64,000 nt of DNA. Source: Thermoproteus sp. (GTDB lineage Archaea; Thermoproteota; Thermoprotei; Thermoproteales; Thermoproteaceae). Of this stretch, positions 52,793 to 58,357 are shown piece after piece; the stretch's first letter is position 1, and the number at the start of each line of letters is the position of its first letter. The position numbers and the translations under genes are program-made. The notes under the pieces were generated by a model. It worked only from the letters and a program-made list of their open reading frames with translations, ran no database searches and was not told the DNA's origin. The stretch spans positions 1,105,824-1,169,823 of the forward strand of contig JAWARJ010000001.1 in NCBI GenBank assembly GCA_038893495.1. Reading direction: 5' to 3'.

Positions 52793-53476
52793 ATGTTTCC
52801 TCTACAGAGGAGCATACCGTTCCCTCCAATAAAGCTAGAACGACTGGCTAAGTACCTACAGGAAGTAGTACAGAGGGGTTCTGTGGAGCTGGACGAGTTG
52901 AAAAAGGAGGGCGTAGATTTCGGTAAAGGCAAGGGGGACATCACGCGTTTCCTCGAGAGGCTGGGCCTCGTGGCAGTCTCCGGCAAGACTGTAGCTCCTA
53001 CGAAGCTGGCCTACGAGGTGCTCTCCATATACCGTATAATCGGCAATGCGGCGTTCCATCCGCTCTTCTACGCCGTGTTGTTGCAGTACAAACTGCTTTC
53101 CGACATAATGAGAGATCTCCGTATGGCGTCTGTAAATGAGCTACATGAGGCCCTAAATAAGAGGATCGCTGAGATATCGCCTTCGAGTTGGATAAACAAT
53201 GTCGCATTTAGATCGCTCGTGGCTATAGCCGTGGATATAGGCCTCCTGAGCAAAAAGGGAAGGATGGTGGAATATCTAGGGGACCCCATATCTCGCGCTC
53301 TCGCCAGCGCGGCGAACGGGGCGCTTATAGGCAAGTCGGCATATATGGAGGAAGTCCCCGAATGGTTGAGGGACTGCGTAAAGGTGCAGAAGCCGCTGGG
53401 CGTAGTGGAGCTTGACCCCGAATGCGCATCTCGCATCTTGGAAGAACGCATATTGGGGCTATTAATTGATAAATAG
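52793..53476 (+). CDS. Winged-helix protein of unknown function (ParA cluster, gene 1)
   Basis: About 227 residues. N-terminal winged-helix-like segment (LAKYLQEVVQRGSVELDELKKEG...ITRFLERLGLVAVSGKTVAPT), a long helical middle and a second winged-helix-like region. ATG 52793 is used: a TATA-like ttatttg occurs about 24 bp upstream, whereas the longer frame to 52658 starts inside the PhoU promoter region. It is followed by two smaller winged-helix genes, a membrane protein and a ParA ATPase on the same strand. Confidence 0.7.
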   Translation: MFPLQRSIPFPPIKLERLAKYLQEVVQRGSVELDELKKEGVDFGKGKGDITRFLERLGLVAVSGKTVAPTKLAYEVLSIYRIIGNAAFHPLFYAVLLQYKLLSDIMRDLRMASVNELHEALNKRIAEISPSSWINNVAFRSLVAIAVDIGLLSKKGRMVEYLGDPISRALASAANGALIGKSAYMEEVPEWLRDCVKVQKPLGVVELDPECASRILEERILGLLIDK

Positions 53477-53493
53477 GCTCGAGATAAGTATAC

Positions 53494-53787
53494 ATGAGGC
53501 GCAGACAACGGGGGGAGGATAAGAGGGGGAGTCTCTTGGATTTTCTAGGCGTCTCCGAGGAGAAGCCTCCCGAGAAGAAACAGGAGGAAGCAGGCGGAGT
53601 GGCGGAAGCGATATACGGCTATATATCCAGCAAGAAGTCTATAACCAAAGACGAACTGTTCGACTGGGGCAAGGCCAAGGGATACACCGTGGCTGAAGTC
53701 ATGAGGGCCGTAGACTTCCTCGTAAAGTCTGGCAAGATAAAAAGGCGTCTAGACGACGAAGGTCGTTTAGTCTATACGGCGCCCTAA
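53494..53787 (+). CDS. Small winged-helix protein (ParA cluster, gene 2)
   Basis: A 97-residue protein. A charged, disordered N-terminus (residues 1-33) precedes a winged helix (SITKDELFDWGKAKGYTVAEVMRAVDFLVKSGKIKRRL). Such domains bind DNA or protein. It starts 17 bp after gene 1. Confidence 0.7.
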   Translation: MRRRQRGEDKRGSLLDFLGVSEEKPPEKKQEEAGGVAEAIYGYISSKKSITKDELFDWGKAKGYTVAEVMRAVDFLVKSGKIKRRLDDEGRLVYTAP

Positions 53788-53824
53788 ATAGAAAACTATA
53801 TATTTAGATATTGCAATACCGTTT

Positions 53825-54133
53825 GTGGAAGTCTGCGAGATACTTGGGCGATACCTCGCCAAGTTGGTGGAGGGAGCTAGAGGTAATGTAGTCAGCTTCA
53901 CCGTTGGGGATGTGTCTAGGTGGTCCGAGGAGAAGTATAGGACTACCCGCTCTGTTACGCTTAGAGTGGCTGCGATATGTGAAGCGTTGCTGGCTCAGGG
54001 GCTCTTGGAGAAAATAGGCAAGAAGTACATCTTACGCCGCGGCTCGCCGCTTTGGGAGGCGGCAGCCAAGAACGACGAAAAGGCCGTCTGTGACATAGTG
54101 AGGCACGCGATTATTGTAACCGAGAGAACTTAA
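53825..54133 (+). CDS. Small winged-helix-like protein (ParA cluster, gene 3)
   Basis: A 102-residue protein beginning at GTG 53825. A helix-turn-helix-like core (VSRWSEEKYRTTRSVTLRVAAICEALLAQGLLEKIGKKYIL) and a final helix are visible. A TATA-like tatatattta lies about 24 bp upstream, so it may have its own promoter. Family unknown. Confidence 0.68.
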   Translation: MEVCEILGRYLAKLVEGARGNVVSFTVGDVSRWSEEKYRTTRSVTLRVAAICEALLAQGLLEKIGKKYILRRGSPLWEAAAKNDEKAVCDIVRHAIIVTERT

Positions 54134-54155
54134 TTATAACTCCCTTTTAGTTGAT

Positions 54156-54401
54156 GTGAGGCAATACCTAGGCGTATTGTTGACGACAATTACAGTCTTA
54201 CTGCTTTTTGTATCACATGAACTCATAATTAGCGTTATAGCCTTAATAATATATATAGTTGGTATCTCGTTGATTATAATTCCGCAAAAAACTAAAGTTG
54301 AGCAAACTGAGGCGCCGAGAGCACAGCCCCGAGCCCCTCCGGCTGTTGCGACCCCCGAAGAGTTGAAGAAAAGACCCGTAAGGCCTCCAGAGGTCGAATG
54401 A
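54156..54401 (+). CDS. Small membrane protein coupled to ParA (gene 4)
   Basis: An 81-residue protein starting with GTG 54156. Two hydrophobic helices (about residues 4-21 and 24-43) are followed by a proline- and charge-rich cytosolic tail (RAQPRAPPAVATPEELKKRPVRPPEVE in part). Its stop overlaps the ParA start by 4 bp (ATGA). A role as membrane anchor or partner for the ATPase is suggested by this coupling. Confidence 0.68.
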   Translation: MRQYLGVLLTTITVLLLFVSHELIISVIALIIYIVGISLIIIPQKTKVEQTEAPRAQPRAPPAVATPEELKKRPVRPPEVE

Positions 54402-55162
54402 AGACCATCGCGTTCCTCTCAGGGCTCAAGGGGGGCACCGGCAAGACGACCCTAGCGGTGAATACGGCGGTCGTGTTGGCTTACGCCTTGAGGCGAAAGG
54501 CGAAATACCCTGTAGTGTTGATAGACTTGACGCCGGGGGCAGGCACCGCGGCCATATTGCTGATGGGCACCTACAACCTCCAAAATGCGGCCAGCCTATC
54601 GGAATATTTCGAGGGGAGGATAATAGATCCGCTACAAGCCTTCTACCTAAGGCGCTGGCAGGTACAGCCGGAGGAATTCAATGTGGTCTTCACGTTCTTG
54701 GCCAGACAAGCCGCAATCTCAAGAAGGCTTTTGGAGGCGCTGATGAGACAGATAGAGGGGAGGCTTGGTCCGTTAGTTGTGATCTTCGACTCGCCGCCGG
54801 CTGGGCGCGAATCGGCTATAGAGGGCCTTCTGGATTTCGTCGTTCCGGTAACCACGCCCGACATGTCGTCTATAACCACTGCGGCATCTATCTCTAGGGC
54901 TGTCGGCGGCAAGATGTTGAGGCCTATACTAAATATGTATATAAAAGATCACGACGTCACGGCGATATACGGAAAGAACTGGCCAGATATAGTCAGGGAG
55001 GCGTTCGGCGAGGAGCCCCACATAATACCGGCCGACCCGCTCTTTGAAGTCGCCAGGCAGGCTTTAGAGATAGAATCGTTGAAATTAAGGCCTGAGGAGT
55101 CGCCGGGCCTGACGGCTATGCTCTCGTATATACGCTACTTAATGACACAGCTCTCTATTTGA
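54398..55162 (+). CDS. ParA/MinD-like ATPase
   Basis: A 254-residue P-loop ATPase with the deviant Walker A GLKGGTGKTTLAVN (residues 9-22, two signature lysines), Walker A' VVLIDLTPGAGT and Walker B VVIFDSPP. Unlike MinD no C-terminal amphipathic membrane helix is obvious; unlike typical ParA the N-terminal helix-turn-helix is missing. Such ATPases partition DNA or protein clusters. The preceding membrane protein could provide the anchor. The end overlaps the convergent HAD gene by 28 bp. Confidence 0.88.
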   Translation: MKTIAFLSGLKGGTGKTTLAVNTAVVLAYALRRKAKYPVVLIDLTPGAGTAAILLMGTYNLQNAASLSEYFEGRIIDPLQAFYLRRWQVQPEEFNVVFTFLARQAAISRRLLEALMRQIEGRLGPLVVIFDSPPAGRESAIEGLLDFVVPVTTPDMSSITTAASISRAVGGKMLRPILNMYIKDHDVTAIYGKNWPDIVREAFGEEPHIIPADPLFEVARQALEIESLKLRPEESPGLTAMLSYIRYLMTQLSI

Positions 55163-55887
55163 TGGGTGATCAGCCCCAGCACCTTCAAGTCGCGTACTAT
55201 ATAGGCCCTGCAGGGCACGGCCTCGTGGTAGTCCCTCTTGATGTAGACCCCTCCTCTGTCCACCAACACCGCCTGATAGTCGGCCATCATGGCGCCTAGG
55301 AAGTCCTCGTAGAAGTCGTCGCCGACATGTACATATACGTCTGGCATCACGTCGCCTACGAGCACCGTCAGCGCCATTTCGAATATGCGGGGGTTCGGCT
55401 TCACGACCCCGACGTCGTCGGCATATATCTGTGCGTCTAGAAGGCCCGTTATGTCTAGCTTCGCCAAGAGCTCTCTAGTAGCCTTAGAGCTCCACAACAA
55501 TATGTTAGAGACGATGCCCACCTTATACCCGTCATCTCTAGCTGCCTTCAATGCCTCCACTGCGTCTTGAAGCGGCCTCACATCAAGACTACCCACCGCC
55601 CGATCAATGGCGTTCTGTACCTCATATACGTCGAAGTCGGCCGCCATGCCGCGCTCCTTCATCTTCCTCTTTATGCGGAATAGGTTATACGTCGGCGGCA
55701 CGAACTCTTGTCGCTCCCTACGGGCGAGCTTTAACGCCCGCCGCTCCTCCTGGATGAAGGAATAGACCGAGCTCCAAGACGCCCTTCCCCCCAAAGTCTT
55801 GACCAAGACGTCGGCAACAGCTTTTATAGCGGGCTCTACTGGGAGAATCGTGCCCCACACGTCGAATGTTATCGCCTTGATGCTCAT
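55135..55887 (-). CDS. HAD-superfamily hydrolase
   Basis: About 250 residues. Motif I TFDVWGTIL (DxW instead of the usual DxD, so the acid/base residue is altered), motif II GIVSNIL, motif III lysine VVKPNPRIFEMAL and motif IV HVGDDFYED. Substitution of the second aspartate suggests reduced phosphatase activity or a dehalogenase-like/other role. ATG 55887 has a TATA-like taaatattaa about 26 bp upstream. Its start lies 7 bp beyond the start of the divergent surface-protein gene, so the two starts overlap. Confidence 0.82.
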   Translation of the reverse strand: MSIKAITFDVWGTILPVEPAIKAVADVLVKTLGGRASWSSVYSFIQEERRALKLARRERQEFVPPTYNLFRIKRKMKERGMAADFDVYEVQNAIDRAVGSLDVRPLQDAVEALKAARDDGYKVGIVSNILLWSSKATRELLAKLDITGLLDAQIYADDVGVVKPNPRIFEMALTVLVGDVMPDVYVHVGDDFYEDFLGAMMADYQAVLVDRGGVYIKRDYHEAVPCRAYIVRDLKVLGLITHQIESCVIK

Positions 55888-58357
55888 AACGGTATTTATA
55901 TTCAGCATTAATATTTATGCCTACCTACTACCGCCATTTTTCCCAACCGCCGAGTTTGCTATATATCCACAAGAGGTAAATATAGGTACTTTCACGAATC
56001 TCACTATAACATTTAAAAATAATATAAATATAAATAATACAACTATAAATATCACTAATGCGAGGATAGTTTACGAAAGGGCTGTAGGCAATATATTAAT
56101 CTTAGGCATATACCCCACAGGCGGGATTGGAGATAAGGTCTTGATCCAAATAAATGGCACTACTAGGAGCTTAGAGATAGCCAATATATGCTCAATAAAT
56201 ATATCTTCAAATAATTTTACCAGCTATATAGCCATTAATATTACATCTAATTGTATAAACCTAAAGAGCTATATAAACGGCACATATGTCCCACTAGGCG
56301 GCACAGAAGGCACATATACGTTAGCCTACAGCCCTTCATATTCCGGTTTGTATAACATAATAGTCACTAATGGCACATATTACCTAAACCTAACGTACAT
56401 CGTCTCTCCACTAATTAAGGCCAGTACCGCATACTATGGGAATTGGGTGAACATAACTTTTATGCCCCCTCTATATAGGCCTGGACTCGTCATTATAGAC
56501 GGCCTAGAATTCACAGCCACATCTATGTTAACAATCCCGCCGTTCTTTCTACCGGCGGGAAATCACAGCCTCTTGTTGTTTCAAAACAGTCTGCTTCTCG
56601 CCAATACCACAATAACTATATTTAAGGCACGGCCAAATATAAATATATTGAATTTTACCAACAACATAATTTATGGAATTTCTAATATATTGTATATTAA
56701 TAGTTATGTATCTAATAGATATTACCCATTAAATATGAGTATATATATAAACGGCACGTTAATGGCAAGCGGCACAACTCCGCTCTCCTTCAAGGAGCCC
56801 ATATTGGATGTAGGCACCTATAACATCACTATAGTCGCCAGCGAGACCGCCAACACCACGGGGGTAGCCATCACGAAATACTTCAAGGTGGTCCCCGCGC
56901 CGGTGAGACTGGAGGCGTACGTAAATGGGACGCCCCTAGGCCAGGTGTTGGTGGCCTCCTACGGCCAGCTGTTGACGTTTGATGTAGCTACATCTTCTAC
57001 AGTGCCCCCTAGGGGGAGCGTCTCCATACTTGTCGACGGCAAGAAGTACGGTCGTGTGTTGGACACATTGGATGTAGGCGCCGGCGTGCACAACCTCTCC
57101 ATAACGTTCACGCCGAGCAATAAGGACTTCGCCCCTGCCACGATAAATTCGACTCTAGTCGTGGCGAAATCGGCGCCGACATTAACGGCGCCTAGATATG
57201 TCGTGACGACATACGGCACGACCCCTATGGCCACTATAGGGCTCTTCGTTTACGGCAGGCCCATATCGGGGATCTTGACAGTGACGGTGGCCAACTACAC
57301 GGAGGAGGTACAAGTCTACGGCAACACTACTGTAGTCTTGCCAAAACTCCCCGCGGGAGCCTATCAAGTCTTGGTGTCCTTCCCCGGCAACAACAACTTG
57401 TACCAAGCAAGCACGTCGTTCTTCCTAGTCGTAGAGAGCGCAAAGACCACAGTGGTCGTCCAAGTTCCGCCTAAGTCGGTCTACGGCTCCGTCGTGCCCA
57501 TATCAGCATACATAACGCCACAGGTCCCCGGGACGATCTCCATATTGGTCAACGGGACTCTGATATATAACAGCCGCGGTCCCAGTATAAGCACCTCGTG
57601 GGTTCCCCCCAGAAGCGGGCATTTCAACATAACGGCTGTATTCCAAAGCCTTTCGAGCAACTACTCGAACAGCATGACATATACTATAATATATGTAGAA
57701 AAAGCAAATTGCAATATACTACTTCAAATAAATTCATCAAATATTTATGTATTAAGAAAATATTATATCATTATAAATTCATCTGTGGTGCCAGAAGTCT
57801 ATATAGATGGGAGATATATAGGCGCCGCCACAGTCCTCCCCATAGTCTTTAACTCCACAGGTCCTCACGACATCTACGCAGTTTTTAGCGGCGATGAGAG
57901 GTACACGTCGTGCAATTCGTCTCTGCTGGTCGAGGCCGCGAAGAACCCCTCCACCATAGTGGTGGAGACGCAACGAAAGCTAGTCATGCCCAACAGCCCG
58001 CTTGAGCTTACTATAGATGTATATACAAATTCATATATTGTTAATGGCAACGTTATTGTAGTTGCTCAAAATATAATAAATAAAAATAATTATACATTTA
58101 TTAAATATATAAATAATTCTAAAAGTACTATCTATATATCTCTGCCTTCTGCCGGCTCCTATGTGTTGCGGGTCTACTACGAGGGGAATCCCTACACCGA
58201 GGGCAACTACTCGAACGCCATAGCCGTGACGGTGGTGGAGGGGGTACTGGGGATTCCGCTCATCCTTGTGGCGAGTTATGGAGCCGCCGCCATTTCGGCG
58301 TATGTGGCGGTGTTGGCGGTAAAGATAATAAGGAGGAGGAGTTATAGAGCTTCATGA
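55880..58357 (+). CDS. Large Ig-like repeat surface protein with membrane anchor
   Basis: About 825 residues. N-terminal signal sequence (about residues 1-20: LITVFIFSINIYAYLL), then at least five Ig-like/cadherin-type beta-sandwich repeats (for example FKARPNINILNF, VNGTPLGQVLVAS, ARYVVTTYGTTPMATIGLFVYG-like), and a C-terminal membrane helix with basic end (ILVASYGAAAISAYVAVLAVKIIRRR). Very rich in N-x-S/T sequons, so probably heavily glycosylated S-layer-associated or adhesive protein. ATG 55880 is used as the only start giving a signal peptide. AT-rich patches alternate with GC-rich ones. Confidence 0.8.
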   Translation: MLITVFIFSINIYAYLLPPFFPTAEFAIYPQEVNIGTFTNLTITFKNNININNTTINITNARIVYERAVGNILILGIYPTGGIGDKVLIQINGTTRSLEIANICSINISSNNFTSYIAINITSNCINLKSYINGTYVPLGGTEGTYTLAYSPSYSGLYNIIVTNGTYYLNLTYIVSPLIKASTAYYGNWVNITFMPPLYRPGLVIIDGLEFTATSMLTIPPFFLPAGNHSLLLFQNSLLLANTTITIFKARPNINILNFTNNIIYGISNILYINSYVSNRYYPLNMSIYINGTLMASGTTPLSFKEPILDVGTYNITIVASETANTTGVAITKYFKVVPAPVRLEAYVNGTPLGQVLVASYGQLLTFDVATSSTVPPRGSVSILVDGKKYGRVLDTLDVGAGVHNLSITFTPSNKDFAPATINSTLVVAKSAPTLTAPRYVVTTYGTTPMATIGLFVYGRPISGILTVTVANYTEEVQVYGNTTVVLPKLPAGAYQVLVSFPGNNNLYQASTSFFLVVESAKTTVVVQVPPKSVYGSVVPISAYITPQVPGTISILVNGTLIYNSRGPSISTSWVPPRSGHFNITAVFQSLSSNYSNSMTYTIIYVEKANCNILLQINSSNIYVLRKYYIIINSSVVPEVYIDGRYIGAATVLPIVFNSTGPHDIYAVFSGDERYTSCNSSLLVEAAKNPSTIVVETQRKLVMPNSPLELTIDVYTNSYIVNGNVIVVAQNIINKNNYTFIKYINNSKSTIYISLPSAGSYVLRVYYEGNPYTEGNYSNAIAVTVVEGVLGIPLILVASYGAAAISAYVAVLAVKIIRRRSYRAS

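Follow-up and report, generated by a model that had tools for sequence, protein, structure and literature searches.

What does a ParA/MinD-type ATPase do in Thermoproteus, and which of the small genes that precede it belong to the same system? The window analyzed here is a 64,000-nucleotide stretch of a complete 1.99 Mb chromosome (genome G000). The initial annotation described five plus-strand genes in it, namely three winged-helix proteins (A227, B97 and C102), a small membrane protein (TM81) and an ATPase, and tentatively read them as one system for chromosome segregation or membrane attachment. All five open reading frames are present as described (5/5; Table 1). Each has orthologues in other genomes, which rules out chance reading frames.

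Table 1. Genes and sequence elements of the locus, in window coordinates.
Feature	Position	Strand	Description or basis
A227	52793..53476	+	227 aa; neighbouring order-wide gene outside the unit; 42/81 class genomes, at a different locus outside Thermoproteus
B97	53494..53787	+	97 aa; small probable winged-helix protein paired with A227, outside the unit; also directly downstream of A227 in Pyrobaculum-type genomes
Putative BRE/TATA promoter element of C102 (AGAAAACTATATATT)	53790..53804	+	about -35 to -21 from the GTG start
C102	53825..54133	+	102 aa, GTG start; winged-helix protein; opens the unit in Thermoproteus and Pyrobaculum only
TM81	54156..54401	+	81 aa, GTG start; small two-helix membrane protein, proposed ATPase receptor
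TM81 hydrophobic hairpin (predicted), residues 1-46	54156..54293	+	hydropathy over 30 orthologues
TM81 conserved C-terminal motif, TP-EELKKRPVRPP type	54354..54389	+	alignment of 30 sequences
ATPase, MinD/FleN-like, deviant-Walker	54398..55162	+	254 aa; alignment of 34 orthologues, AlphaFold, Foldseek, profile matches
ATGA overlap, TM81 stop / ATPase start	54398..54401	.	sequence
Deviant Walker A KGGTGKTT with signature lysine K11	54428..54451	+	alignment of 34 orthologues

We compared wide loci around the ATPase gene from 40 relatives and searched 81 genomes of the class with profiles, using a threshold of E below 1e-50 for the ATPase family. Conservation of the locus is nested. All five genes stay together in Thermoproteus, both in the window and in the five other genomes of the genus examined. 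Pyrobaculum loci keep only C102, TM81 and the ATPase together, and in Vulcanisaeta, Thermocladium, Caldivirga and a second genus of Thermoproteaceae only TM81 and the ATPase remain. The ATPase family occurs in 39 of the 81 genomes (those of the five named genera and relatives), in one copy per genome. TM81 was detected in exactly these genomes, each time (39/39) immediately upstream of the ATPase gene and nowhere else; neither gene occurs without the other among the 81 genomes. By the same profile searches, both are absent from all five genomes of a lineage labelled g8 and from one genome of a lineage labelled f3, all of this order, as well as from the 36 remaining genomes of the class. The ATGA overlap by which TM81 and the ATPase were said to be coupled is present in the window, and overlap or abutment of the two genes was also found in Pyrobaculum, Caldivirga and Thermocladium. 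In Vulcanisaeta they are separated by 56-116 nt. The real unit is TM81 plus the ATPase (54156-55162), an order-restricted, single-copy two-gene module. The suggested coupling of a MinD/ParA ATPase to a membrane protein of its own is borne out, and the pair is kept in all five cultured genera of the Thermoproteales. Further downstream in the window (55799-58357) is a gene for a large secreted protein with Ig-like repeats (Big_3_5) and a C-terminal membrane helix, which stays beside an HAD gene and the ATPase in Thermoproteus and Pyrobaculum.

Given the nested synteny and the genome-wide distribution of each gene, the five genes are two modules that happen to abut in Thermoproteus, rather than one system. 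That all five genes form one conserved functional cluster, the original proposal, accounts for their joint presence in the Thermoproteus genomes, but we regard it as extremely improbable. A227 and B97 lie at another locus outside Thermoproteus, C102 is missing from most other genera, and between B97 and C102 there is a promoter signal. Of the four supposed partners of the ATPase, three are not conserved with it, and the five-gene order expected across the Thermoproteales is kept whole in Thermoproteus alone; only TM81 and the ATPase are kept together throughout the ATPase-bearing genomes. A five-gene operon is rejected on the basis of this synteny and the conserved internal promoter signal.

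A227 and B97 form a pair of their own (window 52793-53787). A227 is order-wide, with the g8 and f3 genomes included, and B97 is Thermoproteaceae-wide. The description of three winged-helix proteins holds for C102, for which the AlphaFold model is confident (pLDDT 90.2; H-E-H-H-E-E-H-H) and the Foldseek matches, although weak, are mostly to winged-helix proteins. Profile support for the other two is weak; for A227 it consists of AAA_assoc_C and HTH_45 matches in a minority of orthologues. A conserved stretch near the N-terminus of B97, of the type [ST/L]-L-[FL]-D-F-[VIL], appears to resemble an archaeal PCNA-interacting motif.

Orthologues of C102 adjoin TM81 in all 17 Thermoproteus and Pyrobaculum genomes (17/17). 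A true orthologue is absent elsewhere among the 81 class genomes, including Caldivirga, Vulcanisaeta, Thermocladium and one genus of Thermoproteaceae. In both genera, C102 is preceded, about 21-35 bases before the start, by a TATA-like element and, in front of it, an A-rich BRE-like stretch. An all-A/T 8-mer occurs at -40 to -19 of C102 in 15 of the 17 orthologues, as compared to 4.5% of random positions. A comparable element precedes TM81 in 23 of 29 genomes and the ATPase in only 4 of 29. The conserved TATA box in front of C102 suggests that a new transcription unit begins there. These signals fit leaderless transcription from C102 and possibly again from TM81, with the ATPase read from TM81. 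C102 would then head the operon in Thermoproteus and Pyrobaculum, where it probably regulates operon expression. A diverged paralogue of C102 (127 aa; G000:C1:190005-190298) is conserved in Thermoproteus and weakly in many genomes of the class. It was considered as part of a ParA module and rejected, as its immediate neighbour is a thiamine-type kinase-like gene.

The ATPase has the deviant Walker A motif attributed to it (KGGTGKT, K11-T17), which conforms to the xKGGxGK[ST] signature of the ParA/MinD superfamily. Residues K11, G12, G13, T14, G15, K16 and T18 are invariant in 34 orthologues, as are further residues of the nucleotide site. The AlphaFold model is confident (pLDDT 92.5) and has the MinD-type fold of this superfamily. 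The best Foldseek match is MinD of Archaeoglobus (1hyq, E 6e-12). This structure and MinD bound to a MinE peptide rank ahead of FlhG/FleN and Soj, with MinD and FlhG matches at E 1e-9 to 1e-12, and a family profile compared with the PDB also places MinD and FleN first by sequence. Scores against the curated MinD models are far below cut-off (24.9 bits for TIGR01969, cut-off 201.75; 17.6 bits for TIGR01968, cut-off 212.9). A C-terminal amphipathic membrane-targeting helix of the MinD type was not found in the alignment, the AlphaFold model or the tails. Little or nothing follows the last core helix, and the tails are short and unconserved, with a net charge of -2 to +2. Plasmid and phage collections gave no match and PHROGs matched only a generic ParA family, so that a plasmid or phage partition gene was rejected; a defence system was rejected on the absence of a PADLOC match.

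TM81 consists of 40-53 hydrophobic residues followed by a basic, Lys/Arg-rich tail of 26-35 residues (30 orthologues, hydropathy). The hydrophobic part is long enough for two helices joined by a very short turn, suggesting a hairpin with almost no extracellular loop, and the positive-inside rule predicts that the tail is cytosolic. The proline-rich tail noted previously is present. In most genera it terminates in the pattern P-[STG]-P-x-x-[IL]-[KR]-x-R-x4-P, and P67, K71, R73 and P78 are invariant in 30 aligned sequences. Between the two families, identity is 47% over the motif versus 18% over the rest, so that on alignment a near-invariant tail lies beside a fast-changing hydrophobic part. 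A scan of all reading frames of the loci found the tail pattern nearly confined to TM81.

As the ATPase lacks a membrane helix of its own, TM81 is its natural membrane attachment. The co-occurrence and adjacency of the genes in 39 genomes, their translational overlap in most genera, the near-invariant tail, the intact nucleotide-binding motifs, the MinD fold and the absence of a membrane-binding tail on the ATPase all point to TM81 as a receptor or regulator of the ATPase. The linkage of the genes and the conservation of the tail strongly suggest that the two proteins interact. We infer that the ATPase dimerises on ATP, that it is probably unable to bind the membrane alone, and that the TM81 hairpin, with its tail in the cytosol, would recruit it there. 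The conserved C-terminal peptide of TM81 probably sets the ATPase cycle, much as MinE, ParB-type and CapA-type peptides act on P-loop partners. Once localised, the ATPase may determine where or when a further machine assembles, the likeliest candidates being type IV pilus-type (TadC/T2SSE) surface structures. On balance, we somewhat favour this reading, in which TM81 and the ATPase together form a spatial regulator of the MinD/FleN kind that is bound to the membrane and positions, most likely, pilus-type machinery. The pair is a new variation on MinD/ParA positioning, with a transmembrane receptor; a description of the module was not found in the literature searched. It shares with MinD (with MinE; 1hyq, 3r9i) the fold, the deviant Walker A with its signature lysine and, as proposed here, a short peptide partner on the dimer. 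Unlike MinD, the ATPase falls far below the NCBIfam cut-off and lacks the C-terminal helix, and membrane contact is proposed to occur via a separate transmembrane protein. No gene for MinC or MinE was found near the ATPase.

Pilus-type machinery is the leading guess for the cargo rather than a result. Archaeal type IV pili are known to be accompanied by FleN/MinD ATPases (PMC4858521; PMC6668835). The nearest relatives outside the order (lineages f4 and f7) are reciprocal best hits of the ATPase, and most occur in loci with T2SSE ATPase, TadC-like and pilin-like genes. Within the order, a T2SSF/TadC gene immediately adjoins the ATPase in 14 of 15 Vulcanisaeta and Thermocladium genomes. The distant relatives in pilus loci and this adjacency make a pilus-type machine the likeliest cargo. 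The TadC orthologue is elsewhere in the genome in Caldivirga and one Vulcanisaeta. In Thermoproteaceae no pilus gene adjoins the pair and the TadC orthologue is absent; it also occurs in lineages without the ATPase, so it is rejected as an obligatory partner. The tree does not join the ATPase family with its pilus-linked relatives, and their common descent is neither supported nor rejected (p-AU 0.26).

Other ATPases of this superfamily are present in these genomes. The DNA-import system Ted likewise includes a ParA/MinD ATPase (VirC1/ParA-like) in Thermoproteales (PMC9905601). The Ted-locus gene is, however, a different paralogue (at L128, beside a TedC-like pilin reading frame) that scores 49 bits versus 377 for the core ATPase of the same genome and falls outside the core clade in the tree; identity with the Ted ATPase is therefore rejected. 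Two closely similar gene groups on the window's chromosome (G000:C1, about 99,000-106,000 and 192,000-196,000; L163 and L162) each encode a ParA-like ATPase (about 212-214 aa) and a two-TM protein of 634 aa, and are probably copies of an integrated element. Another MinD-like gene lies among pilin-like single-TM genes in at least one g8 genome that has no TM81-ATPase pair (L117:2931-3797, G029).

It is possible, though doubtful, that the ATPase simply regulates the known type IV pili of clade 4G as a FleN/TadZ-type protein (such as arCOG05608), its gene being stand-alone in Thermoproteaceae. A distinct FleN/MinD ATPase is reported to accompany 4G pili in Pyrobaculum, Thermoproteus, Vulcanisaeta and Caldivirga (PMC4858521), such genes are often unlinked, and TadC adjoins the ATPase in Vulcanisaeta. 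FleN/FlhG, the archaeal pilus-linked FleN/MinD proteins (arCOG00589, arCOG05608) and TadZ are also the second-best profile group, and the distant relatives of the ATPase are in pilus loci. However, in that report the 4G systems themselves encode arCOG05608, whereas the ATPase gene lies apart from all five T2SSE loci in the genome of the window, one of which has a different MinD-like gene about 9 kb away. The ATPase differs from all of these proteins in standing alone with TM81 in Thermoproteaceae, with no pilus genes adjoining, and TM81 is not mentioned for 4G pili, or described for those systems, in the available text of PMC4858521.

The pair could instead serve cell division or chromosome segregation, with the ATPase and TM81 marking the membrane and the winged-helix proteins binding the chromosome. 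The premise that Thermoproteales lack ESCRT/Cdv is dated and needs care, as CdvA-like proteins are reported there; what is reported absent is FtsZ and a complete ESCRT system (including ESCRT-III/Vps4), leaving an actin cluster, whose role is unclear, and the CdvA-like proteins as the only parts found (PMC10936438). The Snf7 Pfam model scores even the Sulfolobus control below cut-off, and with it lineages with and without Cdv are not separable. Restriction of the pair to this order, its chromosomal location with no match in plasmid or phage collections, its single copy per genome and, in Thermoproteus and Pyrobaculum, the presence of a winged-helix gene in the operon are consistent with such a role. 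We nevertheless consider it unlikely, since no SegB/ParB-like gene accompanies the ATPase, its association with the winged-helix genes is not kept elsewhere, and the pair is absent from six genomes of the order. SegAB likewise includes a ParA-superfamily ATPase in Crenarchaeota, but the closest folds and profiles here are MinD/FleN rather than ParA, and the initial annotation was right that the locus is not SegAB-like. A DNA-binding adaptor beside the ATPase, as in SegAB or ParABS, is not found throughout: C102 occurs in two genera only, and A227 and B97 are unlinked elsewhere. In genomic context, the ATPase is linked most closely to type IV pilus-type loci. It is less probable still that the pair is a Min-like cell-organising system in its own right, in which the transmembrane receptor peptide stands in for MinE as well as for the MinD membrane helix, and the division site or poles are set without FtsZ or ESCRT-III. 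A membrane activator with a P-loop signalling enzyme, like the CapA/CapB or TkmA/PtkA tyrosine-kinase pairs, would have a similar layout, as in these the gene next to that of a MinD-like P-loop protein encodes an activator with two TM helices, of which a cytosolic fragment does the activating (PMC5035731), and some ATPase members weakly match tyrosine autokinase models (TIGR01007/TIGR03018). Yet a C-terminal tyrosine cluster is missing from the ATPase, whose last 25 residues contain 1-3 Tyr, in the last helix; the P-loop is of the deviant ParA/MinD type, and TM81 lacks an extracellular domain. The kinase explanation is very unlikely, and a tyrosine-kinase pair as such is rejected because the cluster is absent.

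The TM81-ATPase pair provides a concrete handle on the organisation of division, poles and surface machines in the Thermoproteales: its MinD-type ATPase is small, single-copy and restricted to the order, and comes with a membrane partner of its own and an evident candidate for the binding peptide. The predicted interaction is between one short peptide and one ATPase. If true, the design would be unlike that of MinD, whose ATPase binds the membrane itself.
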